DNA of 33,017 bases, taken from the IMG/VR virus record IMGVR_UViG_3300025141_000420, positions 1 to 33,017 of that record. The stretch is one strand, 5' to 3'. Below are positions 4,201-31,787 of this stretch, in pieces. This DNA is from a virus. Below the pieces are notes generated by a model that did no database searches, was not told where the DNA came from, and was given only the letters and a program-made list of their open reading frames with translations. The number at the start of each line of letters is the position of its first letter. The first letter of the stretch is position 1. The translations under genes and the position numbers were made by a program.

Positions 4201-7145
4201 TGGTTCTATCTGACACAAATGCACTACCATGGCTCCGACACAAAAGAAAATCTAATCGCAGAAGAAAATATGTTGACCACCCTGCTCTTTTCGAGGAAGG
4301 ATTTCTTAATATAGCAGAACCTTTCGGTTTTTATCCCGAAACTGTCGCTTTGTGGTTGCGGGAGCAAATCACAAAAATTATCCCGACTGTCCTTGATCCA
4401 AACCTAGGAACGCTGAATGACCCAGCCCTGCTCTTTGTCTCAGATTCAGAACCTCAAACCACAAGTTGTAGACGAGTAGAAATGGATTCGTCACTTACGA
4501 TTGCTGAAGCGTTCTCCTTGTCAGAGAGCGACTCGCCTCTACAACCAGAAAAAAACCATGATATTAGTTTCTGTTTTAGAGATAATAACAATGGTCAATT
4601 TGAAGATACAAAAGACATTCTTTATGGTTATGGGTTTGACATTGAATATTCACACTATGTTGTTGATACCGCTCTTCTTCCTGTTTTGTCTGATATTGCA
4701 AAAATTAAAATTATTGATTTAAATGTTGAAAGAGCAATTACCAGATGGGGTAGAGAATATGTGACAGAAGACGTTGTGTGTGAAATCGATGTAACCGGGA
4801 GTTTACCTCAAGAAGCATATGGTGTTATCAATTTTAGTGCCGAAAGCGACCTCCCTCCTCAAGCTAATGCCTTTTTACAATTTTTGGAGGAAGCAGTTCT
4901 TGAATATTCGCTTCCCGGCGAAGAAACCAACGTGACAGATAGTTTTAGAGAGCAGTTAATGAATTCTAAAACACCCATGACCCCATCAGATGAGCCCCTT
5001 AATATTTATGATAAGACACTTCAATTTTATTTGGACACTTTCTTAAGAAAAATATCAGATTCCGAAAATTCTGCGTTTAAGTTTGGGTTTAATCTTGAAG
5101 ACGACATTACGTCTGATGATTTGGTTTATTATAAAGACGTTAGGAACGTTCGCGCTCAAGGTCTACATTATGACGAAAATCTAACAGATGAGGATATTTA
5201 TGGCGAAGATTATTCAGCGCAAGGGTTTACATCTAAAAGGTTGTATTTGAAATATTTAGAAAAAAATAAGGTGCTAGGTGTAAGCGCCACTCCGAGAGTC
5301 CACTTCATGAGCCCGGATGATTACGGAGGTAGATTTGTCCGTCCTCCGATTTATATTGAACCAAGAGAAGATGATGGTTGGTTGGGTTTGTCGAAAGTTT
5401 TAGTGCCAGAATTAGATGCTTGCGATCCAAAGTCTCCCGACCTTGTTGATTTTAGTGATATTGCTGCAAAGGTTGAGAAAATTCATAATAATATGAAGGA
5501 AGATTCAAGGACAGACATGAACCCAGACTGTGTTTTGGAAAAGCCATACTTTAGAATTTTTGAAAGAATGCCAGCCGCAGGACTTGAAGGTGCTGTTATG
5601 TCAACCATTCGAGTTCATGTTGCTGAGACCATGCTTAAATCGATAGCGACATTTACAAAATATGATGTTGTTATGGGAGATATTGTAGATGATCTATTTG
5701 TAGATTATATAATTTCTCAAATCGAAAATGACCTCAGAGACCAGGGCCGAAAAATCAGAAACCCAATCAACCTACTAAAAGGAGAGAATTATTTTTATTG
5801 TTTCCTTGAGCAGGCGGTTCAGATATATAGAAGAAGATATTTAGAGGGAGATGTCGAGATTACGTCAGATATAGAGCAAGCAGTTAATAATATTGACTCA
5901 AAATTAGCAGAATATGAAGTTCCGACAAAAAAATCATTTAGAAAGGCCAAATCTGCAGGAGAAACTGATAGGGCAACGTTTAGAAAATATAAACAAGATA
6001 AAATTGTAGAATTTTTAAAGGACACAGAAGAGAACGCCAAAGTCATGATGAGAACGTTGGTTCAAGAACAGGTTTCATATATGGCAAATCAATTCAAAGC
6101 CGTTTTAGACAAATGGCGCGGAGATGGAGAGTTGATTGACAATCTAGAGGATGACCTGTTTGATGTTGTTGAGTTGGGAGGAGTTCCAGCAGATTTAACT
6201 TATAAAGGTGCGGGTGTTGGAACATTTATCTTTGAAAAATATATTAATGTTGAAGCAAAGGCTGAATCAACATTTCCTTCACCCCCTCCGACCGGGGTTA
6301 CAAGTTTAAGCGAATTTGAATCGTGGCTCAGTAGTGTTAATTCTGATTCAACTTTTGATAACTCTCAATTAATTTCTGATTTATTTGGGGAGCTTTCAAC
6401 AATTACTGATACAGAAACCGAGGATATCCTTGGGGTGGATGGAACAATTGGTTTGAGATATGGTCTAAGAATCACTTACATCCGCCCGGATACTGCTATG
6501 CAAACAATAAATCTTGACGGGGAAAAGGCATCCACCCTCGCCGCCGACGAAGAAAGAATCCCTATAGCATCTGTGGAGATTGATATTTTAGATGGAACAA
6601 TTGAAGGTTTAAATGTTAGTAGCGGAGAAGATGGCTATAATCTTGAGTGCTTAAAGCAAAAACTAAAAGAAGAGCCAAAATACATTGCTCTATTTAAATA
6701 TGCAATCCCCCTTCCAAGGCTATTGTCTCTCTGCGTCATTTATAACTCTAAAGCCTTTTTGCCTTCTATTGGTCAAAAGCCGACAGGTACGTTTGTGAAA
6801 AGCACAGGAGACTCTTGGTCTGAAGGAGAGGGCATCCTCAACGCGACCTCAGAGCCACTCAGTCAGGATGAATGGCAGGAAGACGCCTTTGATTCAAGAG
6901 GTTTAAATTGGTACAAATGGGACCAGGAATCCTTTGATAAATCTAAAAGAACGGTTAGAAAAATGTTTGTTTCATTTTGGAATTATCGAGAGCCTTTTGA
7001 CTTTAACTTTGAACTGAATGCTGAGTTGTCTGGTCGATTGCGAGATTTGATGAGTTTTAATTTTGATGGAACAGTTTTAAATTGGTTTTTGCGTAGAAGA
7101 ATAATTGATAGACCATTTAACAAAGATGATGAAGAATGTGAATAA
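1248..7145 (+). CDS. Very large unknown virion structural protein (1,965 residues)
   Basis: I do not recognise a named family. The protein is long and acidic. It has cysteines at 14, 26 and 29 (the last two as CPSC), a Glu-rich loop at about 163-170, a tandem pair of identical 19-residue units at 887-905 and 906-924, and a basic RRK-rich patch at about residues 1003-1010. No signal peptide or transmembrane segment is apparent. GGAG at 1237-1240, seven bases before the ATG, supports the start; the gap to the previous stop is 12 bases. It sits between the candidate spike gene and gp25, so it is probably part of the baseplate or tail tip. It lacks the long heptad or helical character of a tape-measure protein, so I do not call it one. 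Its size and position make it a lineage-specific baseplate component by inference only. Confidence 0.6.
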   Translation: MAGENLREYQIDECEDVEEVVEEVSCPSCVEDPSFVEPDWRSLKTRTQVYDNSIDMNLIGKVSEAYLNNKTCEYTIVARSKYEGTGGEESLQDRMDESLESAVRGLLRYYNKIETDGDEGTVSAILAVASAVDYHIQPRKNLKMKVKVVVPAFNFDQIESASDEEEESEEGADIVVTYNSIELRPLILSVASEFRLYNFYQAFMEKKEGSYVVFSDTGHLYDFDLQRTLLGDFLRQLNEFLNSKGYAKVKSFHLGGTNRTIRKKIPETLEFGFTQEYKLKYIKITAAGCPDQEKFNVQKGQFPFSEACFQNATTMAYVASLREMDMDIRASDPLPWDEIATQYTYPAVKINYGDGVDSSNGTEELSALGCLVDSIRQDRNIFSDVVSLSEALTDTWNELLCMTAEEKEKFREEVESNDDILMKIVEETSLREFNPDETPWGNWGSIVENAPDVDVVKYYWNEIFGEVGVCGILSLLKEAINCLVSGLSYEEALRTVITSRINSLNTRDFGRLTTLIPASLRSSVEEQVKSQLVLGEIVTWPWDNEEAQYSDYMPESEGLDYGDQNSVLGVQESIQDQEILETYKTELLNSIQTIEDLDQFIEFLGRLPGAKLLFDLVREPNCVMPTVKNLPIKGCPDINFELTVPFSRIYGFTQRSAAWWNGKDPFEVLGRVSDRFEEVLVKVLVRIINKVMKTIKESPCELIAASAELAKDGEGSFSLREALSSLYCGEEADEEEIDSTIESLLSSIADTSSEQLTDAVEVAVGSLNETEAVQLLLGEAKPEVYESIVDIIGDNYPELTNVFANELQVRKFFRNIGSFFPVDMKRNMRNATRSLPVSYQPATICATKEQLFDLSNAYPEPLTKDGTTQEQADAQFNDYRESIKQDLLELSDILNNGIEGAVTQELLELSDILNNGIEGAVTQELLDSISDSTEECLTESATIDSEVLNVDYTNTLLNQSIVGFFKTIERNFDRDLIGRKGFLNMVLSDTNALPWLRHKRKSNRRRKYVDHPALFEEGFLNIAEPFGFYPETVALWLREQITKIIPTVLDPNLGTLNDPALLFVSDSEPQTTSCRRVEMDSSLTIAEAFSLSESDSPLQPEKNHDISFCFRDNNNGQFEDTKDILYGYGFDIEYSHYVVDTALLPVLSDIAKIKIIDLNVERAITRWGREYVTEDVVCEIDVTGSLPQEAYGVINFSAESDLPPQANAFLQFLEEAVLEYSLPGEETNVTDSFREQLMNSKTPMTPSDEPLNIYDKTLQFYLDTFLRKISDSENSAFKFGFNLEDDITSDDLVYYKDVRNVRAQGLHYDENLTDEDIYGEDYSAQGFTSKRLYLKYLEKNKVLGVSATPRVHFMSPDDYGGRFVRPPIYIEPREDDGWLGLSKVLVPELDACDPKSPDLVDFSDIAAKVEKIHNNMKEDSRTDMNPDCVLEKPYFRIFERMPAAGLEGAVMSTIRVHVAETMLKSIATFTKYDVVMGDIVDDLFVDYIISQIENDLRDQGRKIRNPINLLKGENYFYCFLEQAVQIYRRRYLEGDVEITSDIEQAVNNIDSKLAEYEVPTKKSFRKAKSAGETDRATFRKYKQDKIVEFLKDTEENAKVMMRTLVQEQVSYMANQFKAVLDKWRGDGELIDNLEDDLFDVVELGGVPADLTYKGAGVGTFIFEKYINVEAKAESTFPSPPPTGVTSLSEFESWLSSVNSDSTFDNSQLISDLFGELSTITDTETEDILGVDGTIGLRYGLRITYIRPDTAMQTINLDGEKASTLAADEERIPIASVEIDILDGTIEGLNVSSGEDGYNLECLKQKLKEEPKYIALFKYAIPLPRLLSLCVIYNSKAFLPSIGQKPTGTFVKSTGDSWSEGEGILNATSEPLSQDEWQEDAFDSRGLNWYKWDQESFDKSKRTVRKMFVSFWNYREPFDFNFELNAELSGRLRDLMSFNFDGTVLNWFLRRRIIDRPFNKDDEECE
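3906..4027 (+). repeat. 57-bp in-frame tandem duplication
   Basis: Two identical 57-base copies lie at 3906-3962 and 3963-4019, followed by the first eight bases of a third at 4020-4027. The period is divisible by three, so the reading frame is kept and the protein gains 19 residues (LLELSDILNN-type unit). The perfect base identity, including third codon positions, indicates a very recent duplication or an assembly artefact. Confidence 0.95.
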
Positions 7146-9361: not shown

Positions 9362-11173
9362 ATGGCCATTAAAAGGTATTTTGCAACAAAAGACAATACA
9401 ATTACAAACGCTTATGAGCAAAATCTAAAAACCCGTGCCACGGGCTCTAACATGGGCGCAGCAGATATTTTGGAGGTTTTTTCGATCTATGGACAAGCGT
9501 CTAGTACTTCTTCGGAAAAATCTAGGATTTTAATTCAATTTCCTATTACAAATATCTCTACAGACAGAACCGCAGGGACAATACCTGCCTCTGGAAGTGT
9601 TAACTTTTATCTCAAAATGTATAATGCTCCCCATAGTTTTACCGTACCAAAAAGTTATACTTTGGATATCAAACCAGTATCTGGATCATGGCAGGAAGGC
9701 TATGGTCTTGATATGGACAATTATACAGACCTGACTTTTAACAATACTGGGTCAAATTGGACTGTGGCTACTAGTGTATCCGCTGCAGCAACAGCGACAG
9801 TCACGGTTGTTAACGAAGGATGGGTTGAGGCGGACGACACAATTTCTTTAGTTTCCGCTGATGGAACGACAATTGTGTGTACAATGCATGGATCTACCAC
9901 CACTTCTGCTTCTACATCTGGAAATGTTCAAGCAGCGATTGGCGCTAGTACTACTGCTACTGCAACAAATATTGCAACGGCCATAAACTATAATACCCTT
10001 TTTTCAGCTACCTCTTCTGGTGCTGTTGTAACAATCACACAAGTCGCGAATGGGAGGAGTGGAAATACGGATATTACTATTACTGAGGGAGGCGCAACAG
10101 GGTTTAGCAAGACAAACTTCACTGGGGGTGATGGTGACTGGGTGACGGCTGGCGCAGACTACCACTCAGGTTCATTTTTCACTGCAAGTTTCGACAAAGG
10201 AACGGAAGATTTAGAAGTAGATGTTACAGAACTTGTTGAGGAGTGGATCGCTGGTGACGAAATAGACAACAATGGTTTTGGAATCATGTTTGCAAGTTCA
10301 CACGAAAATGCATCGAGATCATATTACACAAAGAAGTTTTTTGGTAGAGGGACAGAGTTTTTCTTTAGAAGACCAACCATAGAGGCGAGATGGGACTCGA
10401 CCAAGAGAGATGATAGAGGAAATTTTTATTATAGTAGTTCATTAGCAGACGGTGCTGATAACCTAAACACATTATATCTTTACAATTACGTCAGGGGTCA
10501 GTTGAAAAATATTCCTGAAATTGGAGCGGCCGCAATATATGTTGATCTATATTCTGGTTCAAGCCCCTCCCCAGAAGACAGCCCTTTGTCTTTAAGCGAT
10601 ATGGGGACCAGAACAGGCCCAGCAACTGGTTCAAATGTTTCGACAGGTATTTACAAATGTAATGTTTGTGTAACCGCCTCATCTCCGCCATTAACTAAAT
10701 TGTATGATGTGTGGCATGGGGGAGATGGCAAAGGAACGTATTTTACGGGCTCAATAACTCCAAAGGGATTAAGTGGTTCCGATATCAATCCAACTTTTTC
10801 TCATGTCACTTCCATGACGAATTTAAAGTCTATATATCGTCGTCATGAAACTGCTCGTTTTAGATTGTTTGCAAGACAAAAAGATTGGTCTCCAACTATT
10901 TACACTAAGGCAACAAAGACAATTAAGAGCGATATAATCTCCAGTGGTTCTTATAGGGTCTACAGAGTGATTGATGAGTATAATGTTGTTCCATATGGAA
11001 CGGGTAGCGAAAAGCACACCGTCATGTCATATGACCTTAGTGGGAGTTATTTTGATTTAGACATGTCAATGCTTGAATCCGATTATGCTTATGCTATCGA
11101 AGTTAGTTATTATAATGGAGCTATTGGCTCCTGGGTTAAGCAACCTGAGATATTTAAATTTAGAGTAGAATAG
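9362..11173 (+). CDS. DNRLRE-like beta-sandwich tail/baseplate protein with inserted module
   Basis: A 603-residue structural protein. Its N-terminal half reads like a DNRLRE-type beta-sandwich: the segment DVTELVEEWIAG at residues 287-298 and the following NNGFGI are typical of that fold, which is common in extracellular and virion surface proteins. The sandwich is interrupted at about residues 139-258 by a Thr/Ala/Ser/Gly-rich domain ending in FTGG (253-256). The text before it (SNWT) and after it (DWVTAGADYHSGS) would join naturally if the insert were removed. The C-terminal half is beta-rich with many Gly-Ser turns, as in tail fibres or wedge decoration proteins. It starts one base after the gp6 stop, with GGGAG at 9346-9350. 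It lies between gp6 and the gp7-like gene, so a baseplate location is likely; the exact role is unknown. Confidence 0.65.
   Translation: MAIKRYFATKDNTITNAYEQNLKTRATGSNMGAADILEVFSIYGQASSTSSEKSRILIQFPITNISTDRTAGTIPASGSVNFYLKMYNAPHSFTVPKSYTLDIKPVSGSWQEGYGLDMDNYTDLTFNNTGSNWTVATSVSAAATATVTVVNEGWVEADDTISLVSADGTTIVCTMHGSTTTSASTSGNVQAAIGASTTATATNIATAINYNTLFSATSSGAVVTITQVANGRSGNTDITITEGGATGFSKTNFTGGDGDWVTAGADYHSGSFFTASFDKGTEDLEVDVTELVEEWIAGDEIDNNGFGIMFASSHENASRSYYTKKFFGRGTEFFFRRPTIEARWDSTKRDDRGNFYYSSSLADGADNLNTLYLYNYVRGQLKNIPEIGAAAIYVDLYSGSSPSPEDSPLSLSDMGTRTGPATGSNVSTGIYKCNVCVTASSPPLTKLYDVWHGGDGKGTYFTGSITPKGLSGSDINPTFSHVTSMTNLKSIYRRHETARFRLFARQKDWSPTIYTKATKTIKSDIISSGSYRVYRVIDEYNVVPYGTGSEKHTVMSYDLSGSYFDLDMSMLESDYAYAIEVSYYNGAIGSWVKQPEIFKFRVE
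9776..10135 (+). other. Inserted FTGG-ending domain, copy 1
   Basis: This is approximately residues 139-258 of the protein starting at 9362. The pattern is a strand-rich opening, a DxISLVSADGT strand-turn, an Ala/Thr-rich middle, then VTITQ, GNTDITIT and FTGG. A hand count of 9781-9960 gives 87 G+C in 180 bases, against 25 in 60 for the flank 9661-9720, so the module is only mildly richer in G+C. The boundaries are approximate and inferred from where the host fold resumes. Confidence 0.6.
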
Positions 11174-11175
11174 AA

Positions 11176-14100
11176 ATGAGCATTAAAGATCTTTTCACAA
11201 AAAGTAATAAAATTCTCCCCGCTGAATCTAGTGAGACTTTAGCTGGTGAGATTGAATCATCAGATCTTATCAAAGAGAAGGCAAAGTCTTTTGATAGATT
11301 TGAGCCTCATGTTGATTATTTAACATCCAGCAATTTTGCGTTTTACGGTTCTGCTGAGAAATATTATAAAGATGCTTTTGAACAAATTTACGATTTTTGG
11401 CCATATGATGGTTCAGATGCTGAACAAACTGAATTCTTAAACAAATCATCAGATCTCGTAAGAGAGATGTACAAGACTAGATATCCCAGGACCAATGGGC
11501 ATATTATATTTTCTGCTGACAGTTGGGGCACGCCGGCCACGAAAGTTGGCAGTTATGGTGCTCCAAATGCTGCAGGTGATTATGAATATATAAAAATCTT
11601 AGGTGGTCCACATACCGCATCAAACGGAATGAAAGGCGTTCCGCTGAGTGAAACATTTGATGGGTCCAACATCTATGACACGGATATTTACGGCACAGCC
11701 GGTGTCCTTTCTGGAAGTAGAAAGGGTTCGCGCCTATCGAATCTTAGATTTAACCCCGCCGATGGTACAACTGTTGAGTTCTGGTTAAAAAAGGGTGCTT
11801 TTAATACAACAAATACTGAAAAAGAAGTTATTTTTGATCTTTGGAACGGCGAAGGTGTATCAGAAGATACTTATGGTCGATTCACTATTGAATTAAGTGG
11901 CACTACTGCGGACGAGAGTCCATTCAGAATAACTTATCGTTCTGGTAGTTACGGTATTTCTAATGTAAAGATTGGAACAAGTATTAATACGGGCTCTGTT
12001 GCCGATGGTACGTGGAATCATTACGCAGTTTCAGTGCATTCTGCGTCTGCTGGGGTTAAAACACAACTTTATGTTAATGGCGATTTAAACCAAGCCACAA
12101 CATATACCGGCAACTCCTACAATATGAATGAAGTAACCGGCTCTCTCATTGGATTTATAGGAGCATTACAAACCACAGTTTCTGGCGCTTCTGGCACTGG
12201 AGTGGGATGGGCTAAACTCTCTGGTTCACTGGATGAATTCAGATATTGGAAGGTTCGCCGTTCCTCAAAAGACATTGGGAGAAATTGGTTTACGCAAGTA
12301 AGGGGCGGAACAAATACTGATATCGCAAATGCATCTCTTGGTGTTTATTATAAATTTAATGAAGGCATTACCGGCACTTCTTCAGTAGACTCAGTTGTTG
12401 TTGATTATTCAGGGAGAATTTCTAACGGAAAGTGGGTTGGTTACACCTCCAATTCAAGAAGTACCGTCTCTGCCATATCGGCATCTTCAGCGGCATCTTC
12501 AGAGTTTAAAGACCCCATCATTTATTCTTTCCACCCCGAAGTAAAAAGCACAAAGAAAGGCTTGATGCAAAGCGGAAGTCTTCATGATATGGGTAATAAC
12601 TCCACGTTATTTTACTCTATTCCTGCCTGGATTACTGAAGAAGACGAAGAATATGGCGATGGAACATTATCAAATTTAACGCAAATGATTGGATCTTATT
12701 TCGATCAGATGCAGTTATTGATCAAATCAATCCCAGGCTTAAAGGACCCTAAATATTTTACTTCTGGTAGTAAGCCTTATCCGTTTGCATCACACTTATT
12801 ACAGCACGCAGGGTTACTGACGCCAGAACTTTTTGTTGATGCAACAATTATTGAAAGAATTGCATCAAGAGACGAAGACAGAAATTATAACGACGATATT
12901 TCTAATGTAAAAAATCTTATTTATCACAATCTTTACAACAATATTATAAACATCTATAAATCAAAGGGAACAGAAAAATCTTTAAGAAATGTTCTTCGGT
13001 GTTTTGGTATTGGCGATGATATTATCAGATTTAATTTATATTCGGATAGAGAAACGTATAAATTGCAAAGAAGGTTTAGAACAACTACAGTAAAGAAAAA
13101 GTACGTTGATTTCTCCGACCCAGACCGTTTTGAGTCAACTGTTTATCAATATGCTGATCCCAATAATTCGAATACAGTATCTTTTATACAAGGTAGTGAC
13201 TCTAATGGATATGAAGATTTTGCGGGGATGACTACTCAGGCTGAAATATTTTTTCCAAAAATATTGCCAAAAAGCAATCCAAGTTATTTTGAATTCCCAT
13301 ATATCACCTCTTCATTGTTTGGTATGCATACAGCAAAAGAAGGAGATTCTACCTCTACTGCTTGGCCAACAAATGATTATAGTAACTTCCAAGTTTTTGC
13401 TGTCCGCCCCTTTACAAACTCAAAAAGCGTATATTTTAAATTAACATCTAGCCAGAGCCCTTATCCTTTACCGGAATTGACTAGTTCCATATTTAACGAA
13501 GTTTATGATAATGAAAAGTGGAATTTAGCAGTCAGAATAAAACCAGCTAGAGTTGGCGATAGATTAAGCGGAAGTCTTAACACCACATATACTGTGGATT
13601 TTTATGGTGTCCAAATGCGAGGGGACACCATTGAAGATGAATTTCATGTATCAGGATCTGCTACTGCTGCTAATGGGAAAAACTTCTTAAGGTCTGCAAA
13701 GAGAATATATTGCGGCGCGAGGCGAACAGACTTTACAGGATCAACCGTTAATCGCTCTGATGTTAGAGCGTCCTCAGTTCGATATTGGTCTAAATATATT
13801 CCAACTGGGGACATAAGGGATCATGCCCGTGATCCACTGAATTCTGGAATTAGTAGACCGTATGAAAGCGCATTTTTACATGAAACAGATTTAGAACATA
13901 CCAGAGTTCCAAATATTGAAACCTTGGTTCTCAATTGGGATTTTACCAATGTTACGGGATCATCAAATGATGCCTCCGAACCCTCTGTCAAGGATTCGAT
14001 ATTTTATGTAGACGACATATCTTCTGGTTCATCTGATTCAACTGGAAGGTACGGTTGGTTTGGGGAGTTGTCTAAAAACCAACACTCTGGAAAAGGTGAT

Positions 14101-17100
14101 TTCTTTTTGCCCGCGAATACAGACGATGACAGTGCAATCAAAATACAATATCTAAATTCTTACAGGCAGCAATTACCTGAGACTGTGGCCAGTTCTGATA
14201 TGGTTAATATTTTATCTCAAGATGATAAGATATTTGCTAGAGATCATGAAATCACTAAAAACTTCTTTTCCATTGAAAAGAGTATGTATCAGACTATTTC
14301 TGATGAAATGATTGCAATGTTTTCTTCTATTGTGGATTTTAATAATCTAATCGGAGAGCCGGTCAATCAATTTAGACAAGAATATAAAGATATGGCAAAA
14401 TTGCGCCAATTATTTTTCGAGAGAGTAGCCAACACACCAGATCTCGACAAATATATTGAATTTTATAAGTGGTTAGACTCCAGCATTAACATTATAATTC
14501 AGCAATTACTTCCTGCATCCGCTATGGTTTCTGAAGATATCAGAGATATGGTTGAAAGCCACGTTCTTGAAAGGAATAAATATAGAGGAAAATTTCCCAC
14601 TATTGAATTTAAAGTAGACGATCCTGAAGCCGGCGTTAAAGGCATTGAAGAGATGGTTTACAATTGGAAGTTTGGACACGCGCCAGTCCCCTCAAGACAA
14701 TCTGATAATGCTAAGTGGTGGAAAACAAGAGCGGAAAGAAATGACTCTCCCTTAAGCGTGGATGCTTCTGTAGATAGTGATAGAAATGCAATCAGAAAAA
14801 TTTCAATTACCCATAGAGAACCAAGCAGCATACAGTTATCAAAAACAGATGGCACATTATACAGCGGCTCTTTACATGCCCTTAGAAGATTTACTAAAAT
14901 ACACAGAACTAAACTTGAGATGAGTCCTGTCCTTCGAGGTGGAACAAACTTCCATCCCAACAAAAACATTAATTATGTTCACAGTGCCGTTCATCCTGGT
15001 GGTCCAATTCAAACATCCCACCCTGCTGTTCCGTCTGGATCTGTTATGATTCCCCTCAACGTTATGGTTGTTGATAGAACAACAGAACAAGACATTAATC
15101 TTAAAGATGTTAATGATGTTAATGACCCAAATAAACTAAAAAGAGTTTCAACAAGGGTTATAGTTGGTAGAGAATATGAGCAGGGCATGGGCTATAAGAA
15201 TGGGTCAGGACATCATTTCTTGCCTTTTAATCTTATCAGTTCATCTGTAAATGAGGGATATAACAGACATGTTATTGAAGGGTTTTCTACTGGAACGTTA
15301 ATAACAAATCTGCATAATGATGTTTACGGTCATGACAAAGAAAAGCCGATGCAAGGCCCCTTTACTGAAACGTGGGTTGGCGGGCATCAGTCTAGACATA
15401 TCGACCTCAATAGAGGTTCAGATGATAATAAAAATAGACCAGAAGCATGGAAACTTTTGATAAAGAATGCCGCTGAATTTCCTCCTACAAGTTCTGGGAC
15501 ATTTGGTATTGTTGGGGCGGATTATCCCCATCCTGAAACCAATGATGATCCCGGTCCATATTACCCTGCCAATTTTTATGAAAAAGCCACCTGGACCAGG
15601 GATGGTTTGACAAAGAGACCTGTCAATATTGCTAACATTCAATATGATACCTCTTCAGTAAAACTTGGTAATTATAGAAAAAAATATGAAGTTTTGGTTC
15701 TCAATGGCCGAAAGGAAAATAATTTATTTTTCCGAAAGAACAGCGGAATTACGCTACCTACACGCATATCAAGCACTGACAACCTCAAAGCAACTACGCA
15801 TGTTAATTCCCTAATAGGCGTTAATCCAGACGCCAACAGCCCAGGCAATTTAGTTGTCGGCCCCTTTGCAGCAACATCAAGAGGTTCGAGATTTGTGGTT
15901 GAAGGAGATGATGTAACTCAATTCACCTTGCCTGAACGGGGTACTTTAACGGCATCAAATACATCTGTTATCTCCTCCCGCTTCTCAGCCCCAGGAGGTT
16001 TTGAAGTTTTATCTCGCGGATATCTTGACGTTGCCTCTGAGGAATATTCTCCGTATAACGCGATGAGTTTTAGAAACTTATCTGTCTTAGGATCATCATC
16101 AGGCGAACCAAACTATTTGAGGATGAATGATCATATTGGTAAAAGAGATGGTTTACATTCTCACTTAAGGCGGCACAGTGGCCGACATGGAGCAGACTCA
16201 GTTTACGGAATTATATCAGCCTCAAATTATGAAACATTACCCGCGTACCACAAAGTCTTTAGAAATAAATTAAATGTGCTTAAATATTCTGATGGGGGCA
16301 GCACAATCATCACGGCCAGTTCTTATGATAACTGGTATGTTCAGCGCACCATTCCAAGATCAGATATGAATTATAGTTGGATCACTGCTTCAGCAGCCGG
16401 TGAAACACAAAGGATGGTCGGCGGTTATGCTCCTGCCGATGGTGTCTATTCTGGTTCTGATGGGTATGGTTCGGCAATTGTATTTACAAGTGCTAGTTTT
16501 GCAGGAAGTTATGTTTTGGGAGGTGAAAGAAAATTTCCAAGAGATAAAAATAATTCGGGTCGTCCACAATTTATGCCAACCGACTTTGTTGGACTAAATT
16601 ACCATGTGAGCGAAACATTTAATACTAGCACAAATACTCTTGGTACAACGGAGATATTAGACACCCCCAATGATGGATTTATAAAAACAGTACCTTCCGA
16701 CGAAACAGCCTCTTTGTTTAATGCATTAATATTAAACAGAGGTAGTGTATATGGGTATCCATCTTGGAGGCAAGTGAGGCATAGTTACCACCCGATCATT
16801 AGAAATGAAAGAAAAAACAATAGACTTTCTTTCGTCCAAGAATACAACCCACCAATTTTGATTCAGAGATCTAATGGTGATACGGAATACATAACTCCCA
16901 GATATGGATCATTAAGTGTTTACGAAAGAATAATGCCCATAGTGAGCAGATATAATCCCTTGCAACAATCAGTTCAAATAAGTTTGGTGCCAGGGGACGA
17001 TGATCGAGCTGCGGTTGTTCTGCCACCACAAATTATAACACTTCAAAGCAGTTATGGGAATGACTTGGTTGCGTTCGACAACGAAGATTTGGACAATATT

Positions 17101-20100
17101 TTAGACACTGAGATTGACAGGTCGAATCTGCCATATGTAAAAATTAAAGATCTTTATGCCAATGGTGGTACAGAAGACCCAACAAGTCCGATTGAAGATG
17201 TTGTTAGCGTATTGTATAATGAAACGTTATACCCATCTGCAGTAAATATGTATACAACAAGAGTCAGGGAAAGGGCAAGTTATAGTAATGGTTTTTGGCG
17301 ATCAAAATTAGATGACCGTATAACACTTGGGACAGGGGATGATATCAAAAACTCTTCAGGTTTTGAAGTAACTGCCTCAAGTTGGCCTCTTGATCCTAAG
17401 TATGATTTTACCACCGCCACCACGGCTTTAGTCAAAGCCAGTACCACCAAGGCTGGAGAACTTCAGAATAACTATACACACATCCATAATTCAACAATTC
17501 TAAATGTTACAGCAAGTGCCCTTTATGCTAGAAAGCACACCTTGGGCGCTTACAACTCGGTGGTACATCCTGCTGGAATTCCTGTCCCCCAAACAGAAAG
17601 CGCCGAGTCGACTGCTAACGCAAGTAATTATTTTGGTGGCCTGATTGACCTTTATAGAGGTGAGGCGGCATGGGACGCGCCATCGACCGCAGGAGTATTA
17701 AAAGAAGTTTTAGCGAACAACAAAGATGCTTCAACTGAATTTGAAACTTATAAATTAGAACCATGGTATGACAGTTATTCTGATTTCAACCAAGAATTAA
17801 GATTAAAAAATAAAGACTATTCTGTAATCCCAGAATTTAGAATTAGTGAGCACATTGAAAGACTTTATAAAACAAACAATATAAATATTGATTTAACAAA
17901 ACTTTTTGAAATTCCGCACGCCGATGTAGATTCGTCAGTACCACAGAATAGTTCGCAAGACGAATTTTATACTATTTTTTCCAATTCTGATTTTATGCGA
18001 CATTTTGATGTAATTCGTGAGGACCATAAAGATATTTTTGATGCAAGTTCTATTTCACTAACATGTAAAGTTTTGAAGAAATTTAACCCTTACAAAGGAT
18101 TTTATCCTGCCCAAAGAACATTGGACTTGGCTACACGCCTGTCTCAATCTTATGGAAAGCATGTCAGGGGCGTGGCTGGCACTCATAATAATCTTTCAAA
18201 CGTTCATTATCGACCATTTGTCACACCGCTTTTTGCGCCGGGTATTATGTTTAATACTATTAAATCAGGGATTGCTGTAGATTATCCTATGATGTTAACT
18301 GGTTCAAAGGTAAGGGCAGTTAATGTCAATAATGCAAGTAGTGATATTGATGGTTATTGGGGTCTTCAATCTCCCGTTTTAACAGTTGGAACAGGCACTC
18401 CGGGTTCTCAAAATTATTATACAAAACTTGAAACAGCCTTAAGAAGTGTTGATGCTACCCTGGCGGGGCTGGCCACTGCTTCAAATTCACCACCAACTGA
18501 AAGATGGGACTACAGAATTCCTTTTGAGGCAATTGTTGAACCTGAAAAATATCTTAAAACAATTCCGCTTTTTGATTATGAATCTGCCCCTAAAGCAAAA
18601 CTCAATGTAACTTCTTCTTGGAGTGGCGAAGGGGATGGTCTTTATAAATTGATGGCTAGCAACTTTTTGGCAGAAGTGCCCGAATTCTTCTTAAAGGAGT
18701 CTTCGTTTACTTCGCTTCAATCATCAGCAATCCCATCTACAGGTATTGAATTTAAAAGTGGTTCAGTTTATGGCGCTCGAATTAAATTAAGAAGAACAAT
18801 GAATCAGGCAAGGGATTGGTCAAGCGATATGGGTACCGCTTCTGTCGCCGGGTTCAATCATCTTAAGTGGACTAAAGATGGATCTTTTGAACTGCCTCAA
18901 GATCCAAAACACCAAGTTGGGTTGAAAGAAACCTTTACAATGTATAGTCGCACAACAGCGTTTGGACCTCCTGTTTTGGGTAGGACCGCTGGTGGTACTG
19001 CAACACTTTGGGAAAAAACAAAGGACGCGACGACTGGTGGTGCGCTTGATTCAATTGATGGTTATAATTGGTCGTTTACTCCCCCTTATTATCATGGAGA
19101 GGCATGGTTTGATATTGTTTTTGAACCCAATAGAGACGCAAAATATACCGTTGAACAGTTTTTTGAAGCATCAAGGACCATAGCGTGGCGTGTCGATGCC
19201 GGCATTGAAGACCCAAGGCCAGAAACAAGATTTTGGACTACTGGAAGCGCCACACCATTAACGGGATCACCCCAGCCCCAATTAGTTCCAAACTATAATT
19301 TAAGTCGATTTTCTTTAGCATCGTTTTATTCTGGCAGGAATATTAATGTTAACGCGATGCAGTTGGACTCCTCTTTTAACATATTTGGTTTAAAGAAAAT
19401 TAATGAATTGGGAGGGAGTAATGAAAAGCGCGCTGATTATTGGATTATTGAACCAAAGTTTGAGACCCCGATGTTAAACTTTGGCCCCGACTCAATCAGG
19501 GGCGTTTCAGAGACTGATGGAACGCTGACAATTCCATTAATTGGATCAGAGTCTGTTCCAAGGGGGATGTGGCATCAATTTGGCCAATTGCCAACAGGAG
19601 AGGAAGGGGTTTATATAGAAATTGATGATATTCCCAACGTTTGGCTGAAAGAACACCCGGCAATTCAATATGATGAAAGATATGGTAAAAAGGATGTTGT
19701 TGAATTGCACAAGGTGTTTCAAGGTGATGCTGTTGCTAGAGTGAATAGATTAAACTTACATGAAAGAATGGAATCTTTGGTAGACAAATTTGGATTCAAC
19801 CCATCTCAGAAATCAAAAAGATTAGGTGAAATTGCTGATTCTAAAGTTATTAAAGAGGCAATTGTTGCTGTGCCTTTTAAGCAGGTGGGCGAGGGAAGAA
19901 AGTTTTTCGCAATAGATCGAAACATGATTGAAGTTGCTCTAGAGAGAGAGACAAGAAGAAAAGCCGACCGCTCCGATGAGCCCGGCGAGTCTGTTTTAAC
20001 AATGGTTGAAACAATGCAAAATTATATATTTCCTCCTAAAATGAATTTTATAGACAATCTTGACTTAGATCCGTTTGTTATGTATATTTTTGAGTTTGAA

Positions 20101-20721
20101 TATAAACTTACGAAACAAGATCTTGCGAATATTTGGCAGAATTTACCACCAGTTACCTATAAATCATTTGAACAAGAAGAAAAAACTATTTCCCATTCTC
20201 TTTCTGCCAATGAATTAATGGGATATGCAAATTTAGGGAAAGAAGGCGTTCCGTTTCAAGAAAACACACAGTGGATGGTTTTTAAAGTAAAACAAAAAGC
20301 AAGAACAAATTATTTTGACAAAGTTAATACAACAAGGTCTGGAACTGAATTAAAGGTGCTAGCTCAAAACCCCAGCGCCACCTTGCAGGATGTTCAAGGA
20401 AATGTAACTCAGAATGTTAAAGTTGGAAATGAATCTGTTTTAAATTACAGTTATAATTGGCCATATGACTTTGTGTCAACCATAGAGATGTGTAAAATAG
20501 GCTGTTCAATCGAATTCTCAGAAACCGAAGAGGCTCAGGTTACTGGAGGAGATGATTTATCGTTAAGCCGCCGCACAGCCAACCAACCTCCCACAGGCAG
20601 GGCAGCAGGAGGATCTTCCCAAACAACACAGAAGGAAGCAACAAATAGGACAGATAACCAATCTCGGAATCTGGGTCAAAGTGGTAGAGGCTCAGGCGGC
20701 AGAGGCGGGGGTAGAAGATGA
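11176..20721 (+). CDS. Giant (3,181-residue) baseplate protein: LamG-like domain plus gpI/gp7-like segment
   Basis: One uninterrupted 9.5-kb gene. After a helical start, residues about 190-400 form a LamG / concanavalin-A-like lectin domain: DGTTVEFWLKK at 196-206, DGTWNHYAVSV at 277-287, SLDEFRYW at 351-358 and YYKFNEG at about 391. Such domains bind sugars or proteins. Residues 596-615 carry SKGTEKSLRNVLRCFG, which resembles the 'KGTxxxlrxaLrxlG' signature of the P2 gpI family, the structural equivalent of the T4 gp7 wedge protein. Its position downstream of gp25 and gp6 agrees with that. The remaining 2,500 residues are mostly beta-rich and unrecognised. The last 58 residues (3124-3181) are disordered, Gly/Arg-rich and end RGGGRR. 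T4 gp7 has 1,032 residues, so this would be an enlarged version. The ATG lies two bases after the previous stop with only a weak ribosome site, suggesting translational coupling. The assignment to gp7 is an inference. Confidence 0.7.
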   Translation: MSIKDLFTKSNKILPAESSETLAGEIESSDLIKEKAKSFDRFEPHVDYLTSSNFAFYGSAEKYYKDAFEQIYDFWPYDGSDAEQTEFLNKSSDLVREMYKTRYPRTNGHIIFSADSWGTPATKVGSYGAPNAAGDYEYIKILGGPHTASNGMKGVPLSETFDGSNIYDTDIYGTAGVLSGSRKGSRLSNLRFNPADGTTVEFWLKKGAFNTTNTEKEVIFDLWNGEGVSEDTYGRFTIELSGTTADESPFRITYRSGSYGISNVKIGTSINTGSVADGTWNHYAVSVHSASAGVKTQLYVNGDLNQATTYTGNSYNMNEVTGSLIGFIGALQTTVSGASGTGVGWAKLSGSLDEFRYWKVRRSSKDIGRNWFTQVRGGTNTDIANASLGVYYKFNEGITGTSSVDSVVVDYSGRISNGKWVGYTSNSRSTVSAISASSAASSEFKDPIIYSFHPEVKSTKKGLMQSGSLHDMGNNSTLFYSIPAWITEEDEEYGDGTLSNLTQMIGSYFDQMQLLIKSIPGLKDPKYFTSGSKPYPFASHLLQHAGLLTPELFVDATIIERIASRDEDRNYNDDISNVKNLIYHNLYNNIINIYKSKGTEKSLRNVLRCFGIGDDIIRFNLYSDRETYKLQRRFRTTTVKKKYVDFSDPDRFESTVYQYADPNNSNTVSFIQGSDSNGYEDFAGMTTQAEIFFPKILPKSNPSYFEFPYITSSLFGMHTAKEGDSTSTAWPTNDYSNFQVFAVRPFTNSKSVYFKLTSSQSPYPLPELTSSIFNEVYDNEKWNLAVRIKPARVGDRLSGSLNTTYTVDFYGVQMRGDTIEDEFHVSGSATAANGKNFLRSAKRIYCGARRTDFTGSTVNRSDVRASSVRYWSKYIPTGDIRDHARDPLNSGISRPYESAFLHETDLEHTRVPNIETLVLNWDFTNVTGSSNDASEPSVKDSIFYVDDISSGSSDSTGRYGWFGELSKNQHSGKGDFFLPANTDDDSAIKIQYLNSYRQQLPETVASSDMVNILSQDDKIFARDHEITKNFFSIEKSMYQTISDEMIAMFSSIVDFNNLIGEPVNQFRQEYKDMAKLRQLFFERVANTPDLDKYIEFYKWLDSSINIIIQQLLPASAMVSEDIRDMVESHVLERNKYRGKFPTIEFKVDDPEAGVKGIEEMVYNWKFGHAPVPSRQSDNAKWWKTRAERNDSPLSVDASVDSDRNAIRKISITHREPSSIQLSKTDGTLYSGSLHALRRFTKIHRTKLEMSPVLRGGTNFHPNKNINYVHSAVHPGGPIQTSHPAVPSGSVMIPLNVMVVDRTTEQDINLKDVNDVNDPNKLKRVSTRVIVGREYEQGMGYKNGSGHHFLPFNLISSSVNEGYNRHVIEGFSTGTLITNLHNDVYGHDKEKPMQGPFTETWVGGHQSRHIDLNRGSDDNKNRPEAWKLLIKNAAEFPPTSSGTFGIVGADYPHPETNDDPGPYYPANFYEKATWTRDGLTKRPVNIANIQYDTSSVKLGNYRKKYEVLVLNGRKENNLFFRKNSGITLPTRISSTDNLKATTHVNSLIGVNPDANSPGNLVVGPFAATSRGSRFVVEGDDVTQFTLPERGTLTASNTSVISSRFSAPGGFEVLSRGYLDVASEEYSPYNAMSFRNLSVLGSSSGEPNYLRMNDHIGKRDGLHSHLRRHSGRHGADSVYGIISASNYETLPAYHKVFRNKLNVLKYSDGGSTIITASSYDNWYVQRTIPRSDMNYSWITASAAGETQRMVGGYAPADGVYSGSDGYGSAIVFTSASFAGSYVLGGERKFPRDKNNSGRPQFMPTDFVGLNYHVSETFNTSTNTLGTTEILDTPNDGFIKTVPSDETASLFNALILNRGSVYGYPSWRQVRHSYHPIIRNERKNNRLSFVQEYNPPILIQRSNGDTEYITPRYGSLSVYERIMPIVSRYNPLQQSVQISLVPGDDDRAAVVLPPQIITLQSSYGNDLVAFDNEDLDNILDTEIDRSNLPYVKIKDLYANGGTEDPTSPIEDVVSVLYNETLYPSAVNMYTTRVRERASYSNGFWRSKLDDRITLGTGDDIKNSSGFEVTASSWPLDPKYDFTTATTALVKASTTKAGELQNNYTHIHNSTILNVTASALYARKHTLGAYNSVVHPAGIPVPQTESAESTANASNYFGGLIDLYRGEAAWDAPSTAGVLKEVLANNKDASTEFETYKLEPWYDSYSDFNQELRLKNKDYSVIPEFRISEHIERLYKTNNINIDLTKLFEIPHADVDSSVPQNSSQDEFYTIFSNSDFMRHFDVIREDHKDIFDASSISLTCKVLKKFNPYKGFYPAQRTLDLATRLSQSYGKHVRGVAGTHNNLSNVHYRPFVTPLFAPGIMFNTIKSGIAVDYPMMLTGSKVRAVNVNNASSDIDGYWGLQSPVLTVGTGTPGSQNYYTKLETALRSVDATLAGLATASNSPPTERWDYRIPFEAIVEPEKYLKTIPLFDYESAPKAKLNVTSSWSGEGDGLYKLMASNFLAEVPEFFLKESSFTSLQSSAIPSTGIEFKSGSVYGARIKLRRTMNQARDWSSDMGTASVAGFNHLKWTKDGSFELPQDPKHQVGLKETFTMYSRTTAFGPPVLGRTAGGTATLWEKTKDATTGGALDSIDGYNWSFTPPYYHGEAWFDIVFEPNRDAKYTVEQFFEASRTIAWRVDAGIEDPRPETRFWTTGSATPLTGSPQPQLVPNYNLSRFSLASFYSGRNINVNAMQLDSSFNIFGLKKINELGGSNEKRADYWIIEPKFETPMLNFGPDSIRGVSETDGTLTIPLIGSESVPRGMWHQFGQLPTGEEGVYIEIDDIPNVWLKEHPAIQYDERYGKKDVVELHKVFQGDAVARVNRLNLHERMESLVDKFGFNPSQKSKRLGEIADSKVIKEAIVAVPFKQVGEGRKFFAIDRNMIEVALERETRRKADRSDEPGESVLTMVETMQNYIFPPKMNFIDNLDLDPFVMYIFEFEYKLTKQDLANIWQNLPPVTYKSFEQEEKTISHSLSANELMGYANLGKEGVPFQENTQWMVFKVKQKARTNYFDKVNTTRSGTELKVLAQNPSATLQDVQGNVTQNVKVGNESVLNYSYNWPYDFVSTIEMCKIGCSIEFSETEEAQVTGGDDLSLSRRTANQPPTGRAAGGSSQTTQKEATNRTDNQSRNLGQSGRGSGGRGGGRR

Positions 20722-28956: not shown

Positions 28957-30543
28957 ATGGCATCAACGTTTAAGGCATTTACTAGTACGGATATTATTAA
29001 CACTAAGACGCTTCTTCATGAAGCAATCCCGTTAACAGGGACAATTGTATCTGGTACTTATTCTGAGAACAATATTAAAAATTATTCTCACGGCATGTTT
29101 CAGAGTGTTTACGATTATCCGTATCTCTCTTCTTCTGCCAATCATATTTTTGATATCACTGTTGGATACGCCAATTCATCAGCCCTCTCAGCATCAGCGG
29201 CCACTCAAAATTCAAAGAAAATTAACATTTATAATCAAATGGCTCAAGTATTAATGGGCAATGATGTTACAGGCAATGTCCAACTGTTTGATGAAGATGG
29301 AGATTTAACTGGCGGAACAAAAATCAAAGAAGCCTACTTTATGAACTTTTCTCGTCTTTTGGTAAAAGATGAAATTAAAAAGGGAACCTTTGAACTTAAA
29401 CTTGGTGTCGGAAATACGGACGCTGTGACGCCAAGTAATCAATGGAGAGGTTCAGGAGTCAACGATTCAAGAATTAAAATTACTGACACAAACGCCGCTA
29501 ATGATTATCGGGTCAATGCTTCTGCGGGAGAATATGGAATTTTATACGCAACTGGAAGCAGCGGATCGGAACTACTTGAAACTGATGACGCGACTGAAAA
29601 ATGTGGTTTGATTTTTTATCAGGCAGGGGTCGTTGTCTTATCAGGCTCCGTCTTCAAAAGAAAAAATCAAGGTGGATTGCTCAGTAATACGACATATGCT
29701 AGTGCTTCAGCAACAGCGGCGTTTACGATGACTGATGGTGATCTTGCCACAAGTGGACAATTTACAGAAGGCGAATATGTTATACTCACCTCTACAGATG
29801 GAACCAAAAGAGTATATGTACTTTGCGATGGTAGCGAAACCATGTCAGTAACTACGGGTGATGTAATAACCGAAAGTACAGATATTGGCGCATCAACCCT
29901 TGGTAGTACGGTCGGAGACTTAGGTACGTGTATTGGTGTGGTTAATAACTTAAACACACACTCTCAAGCCCTTGTTTTAAATGAAATTAAAGCAGCTATA
30001 GTGCATGCTAATGGACACCTTGGGAAAATCACCGCCGGCAGCGATGTTTCGGTAGCCGATGGAAACGTATCAATTACATTCACTCAATCGGATGCTGGCC
30101 CTGGTGGAAACACTGTAACAACTACAAATATAAGCCAATTAACTGCAGCAGATTTTACTGGCGGCAAGAGTGAACCATTGGTGCATGCTTCTGGGTCTTA
30201 TAAAGGTGATGATGCTTTTTATAGTGGATCAATCTCTGGATCTGCTGATGGTTTCAGGGCAAGAATCGTAAATGTTTCTTTTAATAATACTACAGAACTT
30301 AATTCCGCCATCCACTTTTGTAGAATCAATCATAATGATTTTAACTATTCTAGTAACCCAACTTATCTCAGCGACAGCAAGATTAGAGTTAAAAGACAAT
30401 CCACTGACAGTCCGGTGTCTTACATCACTACGATTGGTCTTTATTCTGCAGACAATGAATTGTTGGCAGTTGGAAAATTAAGTGAGCCTCTCAAGAACGA
30501 CCCAACCCAGGATATGACTTTGAGAGTTAGGTTGGATTACTAA
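28957..30543 (+). CDS. Virion structural protein, paralogue of the next gene with an inserted module
   Basis: A 528-residue protein. It is collinear with its neighbour at 30582: IKKGTFELKL at 140-149 pairs with IKKGSVKLKF, GLIFYQAGVVVLSGS at 217-231 pairs with GVVLYNEGFLVLTGS, and the ends from NYSSNPTY at about 463 to the last residue pair throughout. The C-terminus reads ITTIGLYSADNELLAVGKLS and ends in a basic-hydrophobic strand (RVRLDY). Between residues about 247 and 403 there is an extra Ala/Ser/Thr/Gly-rich domain ending FTGG that the neighbour lacks. GGAAGG lies just upstream of the ATG. The protein is beta-rich with no signal peptide. It is probably a tail or neck surface component; the exact role is unknown. 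Confidence 0.6.
   Translation: MASTFKAFTSTDIINTKTLLHEAIPLTGTIVSGTYSENNIKNYSHGMFQSVYDYPYLSSSANHIFDITVGYANSSALSASAATQNSKKINIYNQMAQVLMGNDVTGNVQLFDEDGDLTGGTKIKEAYFMNFSRLLVKDEIKKGTFELKLGVGNTDAVTPSNQWRGSGVNDSRIKITDTNAANDYRVNASAGEYGILYATGSSGSELLETDDATEKCGLIFYQAGVVVLSGSVFKRKNQGGLLSNTTYASASATAAFTMTDGDLATSGQFTEGEYVILTSTDGTKRVYVLCDGSETMSVTTGDVITESTDIGASTLGSTVGDLGTCIGVVNNLNTHSQALVLNEIKAAIVHANGHLGKITAGSDVSVADGNVSITFTQSDAGPGGNTVTTTNISQLTAADFTGGKSEPLVHASGSYKGDDAFYSGSISGSADGFRARIVNVSFNNTTELNSAIHFCRINHNDFNYSSNPTYLSDSKIRVKRQSTDSPVSYITTIGLYSADNELLAVGKLSEPLKNDPTQDMTLRVRLDY
29695..30165 (+). other. Inserted FTGG-ending domain, copy 2
   Basis: Codons 247-403 of the gene at 28957. The pattern shared with the copy at 9776 is a strand ending in ILTSTDGT, a long central part with an Ala-rich helix (NEIKAAIVHANGH), a VSITFTQ strand, GGNTVTTT and DFTGG. 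The paralogue at 30582 is about 160 residues shorter across this interval, so the limits are supported by comparison within the window. Confidence 0.7.
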
Positions 30544-30581
30544 TTCAAGTTTGATCTAATTATATACAAAGGAGCGCTATA

Positions 30582-31787
30582 ATGTCTTTGTATAAGTTTG
30601 GCCCCAATGATATCTTTTACAACAGGGTGAAGACTCACCCTCGTTGTAGTTTTTTTATTTACGGGGCAAAGATTTATTACAACAATCAAGTTTCAGATAG
30701 TGGGTCATTTTCGCCAACTGCAAAAAATGTTCCATCTGGACATTTGAGTCTTTATGAAATAAATGTCGATAAAGAAGTTGGAAAAAATTCATATATTTAC
30801 CCCTTTATCACAAAAGAAGGGGCTGGATATTCCTTAAGCACCGTTTCAACAACCAAGTATAACAATACATTTGCTTACGGAGATAAGGTGACAGGAAGTT
30901 ATCCTTTTTCTGCAAGCATATCTAGGGAATATTATCAACTTGGAGCAAGTCGTAGTCGGTTAGACACCTTACAGAATACACTAAATTATTACACACGCTG
31001 GAGTGATCATTATTCCTACTCCTCATCTCTCGGACTCAAAGCATCCCAGTCCCTTGGTTTGATTAGTGTCCCGTCTATATTTTATGGATCTTCAATTAAA
31101 AAAGGTTCAGTAAAACTTAAGTTTTATATAACTGGTACTTTGGTTGGGGAATTAAATGACACAAAACAAAATGGAGAACTGATTCAGGTTAGTGGATCGG
31201 ATTATGCTCAAACAAATGGGTCAGCATCGGTTGCTGGCGTTGTGCTTTATAATGAAGGATTTCTTGTTCTAACTGGGTCTTGGGCTTTAGAAGCAACTGC
31301 GAGAGACTATATTGCTGATTTAACTGATTTGCAAACGTCATCTTGGCAGTATTTTGGTGTTGGTGCTGATGATGGCATAAACCCTACTAGCGGCAACACT
31401 TTGCATTCTGCTAGTTTTGAGTTAATTTTTGAAGGAACAAATTATGTTCCAACAATTACCATGTTTGCTCACGCGCCGAAAGGGCACTTGAATTATTCAA
31501 ACAACCCGACATATGTCAAATATAGCCAAACAGCAGGGGGTGACTGCCCAATTCAACATCCGTATACTGGAAGCATAGTCTACACCGAGAGAAAGGATAT
31601 TAAAATAGAAAATACAATTTCGAGTTCTTACCCTGACCCAACTGGTTCTTTTAGAAAACAAACGTTCATTAGTAAAGTTGGGATCTATGATGAGGACATG
31701 AATTTGCTTGGAATTGCATCAGTTGCAAAGCCTATTAAAAAACTTGAGGAAAGGGGCTTTACATTCAAGTTAAAATATGATATATAA
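30582..31787 (+). CDS. Virion structural protein, module-free paralogue
   Basis: A 401-residue protein, the shorter partner of the gene before it. Shared blocks are IKKGSVKLKF at 172-181, GVVLYNEGFLVLTGS at 219-233, NYSNNPTY at 304-311, and a C-terminal segment ISKVGIYDEDMNLLGIASVAKPIKK ending KLKYDI. In the first 170 residues the two differ more. AAGGAG at 30568-30573 lies eight bases before the ATG; the 38-base gap before it is one of the larger ones here. It is the last presumed virion gene before the resolvase gene, which begins five bases after its stop. It has no catalytic motif or membrane segment. Tail or neck surface protein is the best general description. Confidence 0.6.
   Translation: MSLYKFGPNDIFYNRVKTHPRCSFFIYGAKIYYNNQVSDSGSFSPTAKNVPSGHLSLYEINVDKEVGKNSYIYPFITKEGAGYSLSTVSTTKYNNTFAYGDKVTGSYPFSASISREYYQLGASRSRLDTLQNTLNYYTRWSDHYSYSSSLGLKASQSLGLISVPSIFYGSSIKKGSVKLKFYITGTLVGELNDTKQNGELIQVSGSDYAQTNGSASVAGVVLYNEGFLVLTGSWALEATARDYIADLTDLQTSSWQYFGVGADDGINPTSGNTLHSASFELIFEGTNYVPTITMFAHAPKGHLNYSNNPTYVKYSQTAGGDCPIQHPYTGSIVYTERKDIKIENTISSSYPDPTGSFRKQTFISKVGIYDEDMNLLGIASVAKPIKKLEERGFTFKLKYDI

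Follow-up and report, generated by a model that had tools for sequence, protein, structure and literature searches.

The concept of Ig-like accessory domains on tailed-phage virion proteins is reportedly due to Fraser et al. Decoration of phage particles by shuffled domains is known best for the Ig-like domains, which are discussed as promiscuous accessory domains of virion proteins in PMC9230969. The same work considers the additional domains of tail sheaths, including those of T4 gp18, for which both adhesion and stabilisation have been proposed. A more general process, the mosaicism of phage protein domains with recent shuffling of fragments in tail proteins, is described in PMC10684548, whose passages on it list tail fibres, spikes, baseplate proteins and endolysins without using the word 'sheath'. 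We describe here a tail-operon gene (gene A) which in all likelihood, with a probability of roughly 0.85, gained a discrete domain of about 155 residues (the module) by in-frame insertion into a loop, this domain belonging to a promiscuous family by which uncultured tailed phages decorate their virion proteins. The spread of the module represents the same evolutionary process as that of PMC10684548, and a difference lies in the module family, which has no Pfam or PDB match. The process of tail-protein domain shuffling is known from that source, while the domain family is apparently new within the libraries searched, in which we found no literature description of it and searches for sheath inserts returned general papers only. 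It is a family separate from the Ig-like one, with no name or solved structure.

Genes A and B are ancient paralogues at the end of a structural gene cluster

The window, i.e. the whole stretch of DNA analysed, comprises positions 1-33,017 of the 33-kb virus record IMGVR_UViG_3300025141_000420, and it is partly collinear with a T4-type baseplate operon (Table 1). The protein encoded at 7558 matches baseplate wedge families (PHROG 219, E=1e-22). Genes A and B form the end of the structural cluster, and resolvase-like and primase-like genes come next. Positions 1248-7145 encode a 1965-aa protein with a perfect tandem repeat of about 18 residues (LLELSDILNNGIEGAVTQE, twice), and positions 11176-20721 encode a 3181-aa protein which is without the module according to the module profile.

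Table 1. Coordinates in the window of genes A and B, of gene 9362 and of their parts
Feature	Position	Strand	Basis or remark
Gene A, 528 aa, tail-operon protein, module carrier	28957..30543	+	ancient paralogue of B
Acceptor loop, left half, residues 232-246, after VLSGSV	29650..29694	+	variable in length and sequence among orthologues
Inserted module, about residues 247-405, ...ASATAAFTMTDGD ... DFTGGK	29695..30171	+	compact domain with kin in tail sheaths
Acceptor loop, right half, residues 406-424, up to SISGS	30172..30228	+	orthologue alignment
Conserved C-terminal region of gene A, residues 425-528	30229..30540	+	homologous to the gene B C-terminus
Gene B, 401 aa, module-free paralogue	30582..31787	+	BLASTP, profile-profile comparison
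Equivalent loop of gene B, residues 234-275; empty here, filled in orthologue L052	31281..31406	+	
Gene 9362, 603 aa, adjoining the baseplate-wedge gene; holds a second, divergent FTGG-type module	9362..11173	+	
Second module, about residues 131-260 of gene 9362	9752..10141	+	hhalign to module profile; site occupancy

A first-pass annotation of the window had described A and B as collinear paralogues with shared anchor blocks, and its positions were reproduced exactly. The IKKG block stands at residue 140 in A and 172 in B, the VLSGS and VLTGS blocks end at 231 and 233, respectively, and the NYS block is found at 463 and 304; the spacing of the last two anchors is 232 residues in A versus 71 in B, a difference of 161, and the FTGG motif ends at 403. 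The similarity around these anchors is above chance. BLASTP aligned the C-terminal 118 residues of the two proteins with E=2e-5 and the VLSGS/VLTGS block with E=0.002, and profile-profile comparison by hhalign (33 A orthologues versus 68 B sequences) gave a probability of 99 and E=2.2e-18 over A 130-369 and B 172-407, with the IKKG, YQAG/YNEG-VLTGS and NYSsNPTY blocks all matched in register, whereas all ten column-shuffled controls had E-values of at least 0.01. The homology spans the C-terminal two thirds, and the two proteins showed no detectable similarity before about residue 130. With the BLASTP match, a profile match that exceeds the shuffles and a first 130 or so residues without detected similarity, the pair is, by sequence comparison, a true but ancient duplication. 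The order of A followed by B is kept among relatives, with B relatives present in most A-bearing loci, usually directly downstream.

The C-terminal region of gene A has homologues among proteins of Microcystis phage Mel-JY01, Flavobacterium phage immuto and Rhodothermus phage RM378. In Mel-JY01 (L002:22490-31436) this region occurs in five consecutive genes, so that the A/B family forms a longer array there. Additional DNA separates the A and B orthologues, adjacent in most relatives, in two loci, L011 (5180-5880) and L045 (2260-4482). The tail-collar fibre N-terminal domain PF12571 scored 13.5 bits in gene A, below the cut-off of 23, and was not listed for any of the 33 A orthologues examined. 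Weak matches to Pfam 'ig' were obtained for 20 of these 33 orthologues (best E=4e-4), and they fall in the core protein, outside the module.

The extra region of gene A is a compact domain

The 161-residue difference had been read as one discrete module, being close to the roughly 157 residues of the FTGG-ending domain. Modelled alone with 20 relatives, this region is predicted to be compact (pLDDT 88.6, pTM 0.87) and to consist mainly of strands, with one clear helix of 12 residues between them. In the model of full-length A, residues 250-400 mostly reach pLDDT 85-96 and are the best-modelled part of a protein whose mean pLDDT is 66.9; most of the remainder, residues 70-130 excepted, is poor, and the core is of too low quality to be overlaid on B. 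In line with the first reading of the window, the confident stand-alone model argues for a single separable domain rather than for extra residues spread through the fold.

The module matched no Pfam family and nothing significant in PHROG. Comparison with the PDB gave no solved-structure match by sequence or by fold (Foldseek, none at E<=0.001), and the top Foldseek matches listed for it include no Ig protein. Fold matches in BFVD (TMq about 0.6) were solely to unnamed and baseplate-J-like viral proteins. Other members of the module family have sub-threshold matches to Ig-type Pfam families, and the gene A module has none.

Members of the module family are found in unrelated tail proteins

Relatives of the module were found in 27 further loci, all uncultured viral contigs, a number that includes duplicates and corresponds to about 21 distinct copies. 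Most of the host proteins are contractile tail sheaths of the T4 type (PHROG tail sheath, E down to 1e-72), in which the module occupies either of two positions, after about residue 100-180 or after about residue 480-495; the first of these comes after a stretch that aligns with T4 gp18 residues up to 90. The module matches the sheath-borne copies with E-values of 1e-48 or better. Against the whole module profile of about 160 residues the gene A copy gives E of about 1e-71, a value obtained with this copy in the training set; BLASTP, which is independent of the seed, gives E=1e-53 and 67% identity to the sheath of locus L085. The nearest kin of the A core and of the module are in different proteins, the core being 60% identical to its own and the module 64-67% identical, over 140-160 residues, to its kin in an unrelated protein.

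The hosts other than sheaths include two orthologues of gene 9362 (L119 and L120), giant tail-operon proteins (L116-L118) and small proteins (L089, L097 and L098). Giant tail-operon proteins of relatives, on the contigs of L032 and L048, carry one or two copies; the one of L032 is a 3382-aa protein with two full or partial copies. The module tree, in which deep branches are weak, is not sorted by host protein, and the non-sheath copy of L089 is nested among sheath copies. No copy was found in 50,697 isolate phage genomes, and none was confirmed in bacterial or archaeal genomes by a search with one short pattern. As judged from these comparisons, the same domain family demonstrably sits in unrelated tail proteins that also have closely related empty versions.

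Like the Ig-like domains, the module is a sporadic accessory domain which occurs in unrelated virion proteins of unrelated phages and is absent in close relatives, and in both cases the hosts include sheaths and tail-tube-type proteins. The module is promiscuous in the same sense, being found in sheaths, gene A, gene-9362 orthologues, giant proteins and tail-tube-like proteins. It nevertheless differs from them, as neither its fold nor its family matches place it among Ig-like domains: no Ig family reaches the cut-off, and the model has the helix between strands. Moreover, the module sits inside loops, in frame, and no frameshift was seen. The additional domains of T4 gp18 (PDB 3J2M/9MKB) are similar in that they are inserted after the same early sheath stretch (VVRV..., about residue 90-100), but the module family is not recognised there by sequence, and the module also occurs outside sheaths.

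It is plausible that the module is an accessory exposed domain which adds a surface property. Our leading guess, which we hold at a little under even odds, is that it could provide weak adhesion to the host surface or to particles, by analogy with Ig-like phage domains and with what has been proposed for the extra domains of sheaths (PMC9230969). The main rival, that the module stabilises (cements) the virion or serves its assembly instead of adhering, seems rather unlikely: while both roles have been proposed for additional sheath domains in that work, the sporadic presence of the module among closely related phages that share one particle plan speaks against an essential structural role. That the module has no selected function appears to us quite unlikely.

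Gene A probably gained the module by insertion into a variable loop

Gene A is encoded by 80 viral loci, which yield 73 distinct orthologues, about 45-65% identical. At the place of window residues 240-404, where the window has 164 residues, all 73 have 0-20. The loop varies in length (22-60 residues) and in sequence throughout the A orthologues, and both flanks of the insertion belong to it. In a tree calculated without the loop, the window's A was placed among the empty orthologues and not at the root, though this placement is without strong support. The first-pass annotation had left it undecided whether the longer gene gained the module or the shorter one lost it, and had suggested a search for homologues with and without it; with versions lacking the module in 73 of 73 orthologues and with the window's A nested among them, the evidence favours a gain in A.

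Gene B had been proposed as the natural empty site. Its loop is indeed empty in the window, and the module profile finds no match in gene B (E=0.86). However, B is so divergent that it makes a poorer empty site than the A orthologues, which serve this purpose directly. Furthermore, one B orthologue, that of L052, has 180 residues in the equivalent loop, compared with 26-66 in other B orthologues. Its insert scores 37.0 bits against the gene-9362 module of the window, a value equalled by none of 200 shuffles (best shuffle 35.4), and the composition-adjusted E-value is 2e-4; the insert is thus a probable relative of the module. Being empty is therefore a state and not a property of gene B.

The opposite course of events, with a module already present before A and B diverged and later lost from B and from the other A lineages, is formally possible from the two paralogues alone, and the filled loop of the L052 orthologue would agree with it. 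We nevertheless regard it as highly unlikely, as the site is empty in all distinct A orthologues and in almost every B orthologue, the window's A falls inside the empty set, and the sporadic presence of the module at other sites favours repeated gain. In addition, length and score place the L052 insert much nearer to modules of the gene-9362 type than to the A module, so that it looks like a separate event.

The insertion in A is known from one contig, and a search for another record sharing its junction found none, which is what one would expect had a stretch of another phage's sheath gene been joined into gene A during metagenome assembly. Such a chimera has an even slimmer chance of being correct, however, as it needs two in-frame joins within a loop that is variable anyway, no sheath sequence flanks the module on either side, the third-position composition of the module matches the window, and the module differs by at least 33% from every other copy found. 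Finally, growth of the extra region within the A loop, with a merely compositional resemblance to other FTGG regions, accords with the varying loop length of A orthologues but is refuted by the sheath-borne matches, by the identity to an unrelated protein given above and by the compact predicted fold.

Under the preferred reading, a gain by gene A, the insertion would have taken place in the window's lineage, in frame and into a loop of variable length. The acceptor loops may be surface loops tolerant of insertions, although the A core is modelled poorly, and the segment coding for the module might move between phages, and between genes, through illegitimate or short-homology recombination. 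The best DNA matches of the module are 68-73% identical and no close DNA donor was found, so the transfer into A would not be recent. A recent transfer from a known sheath was rejected on the same ground. A foreign base composition of the module was considered as well and rejected (GC3 0.29 vs 0.32).

Independent present and absent pairs

Sheaths 86-89% identical to that of L085/L209 have 18-32 residues at a place where it has 176; at the DNA level this insert falls within a variable hairpin loop, with no recognisable sequence replaced. In L098 (4299-6026), two adjacent paralogues of 181 and 389 aa are encoded upstream of the tape-measure gene, a location which suggests that they are probably tail-tube proteins. 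The longer one holds the module, and this pair is a cleaner natural empty site than the A/B pair of the window.

Of 69 gene-9362 orthologues, 14 are filled at the site of the second module and 55 are empty, where 'filled' denotes inserts of varied sequence, not all of them demonstrably module homologues. The tree for this site has at least 11 changes between the two states, 6 of them forced by well-supported branches. The copy in the window's own gene 9362 is divergent but related, with an hhalign E-value of 1.2e-6 against the module profile, and the whole protein gives E=1.5e-7 after iteration. There is also a weak match to PHROG 28344, a family of unknown function, for gene 9362 (E=0.0085) and for one module (5e-4), whereas the gene A module alone is not matched.

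The module family is thus documented by pairs with and without the domain, among orthologues, among near-identical sheaths and between adjacent paralogues. As the unmodified protein is available as a control, such pairs permit a direct test of an accessory virion domain, and they also map the tail-protein loops that accept whole foreign domains. Somewhat more tentatively than in the case of adhesion, one may imagine an undescribed, portable family of virion-decorating domains that circulates among uncultured tailed phages and goes in and out of a small number of preferred hairpin loops time and again, so that within one phage family the tail proteins stay constant while the surface domains they display change. 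The preferred loops would then be, with the same reservation, the early and middle sheath loops, that of gene 9362 and the mutually homologous ones of the A/B paralogues.

Two further observations concern inserts that differ in sequence. In L097 (4965-7124), adjacent paralogues are 44% identical in their C-terminal part and differ in their N-terminal parts, one of which contains the module and the other a different stretch ending in FAGG. Four gene-9362 orthologues (L122, L123, L124 and L127) have inserts of about 172 residues at the same site, which end in a GG motif and are of quite different sequence.
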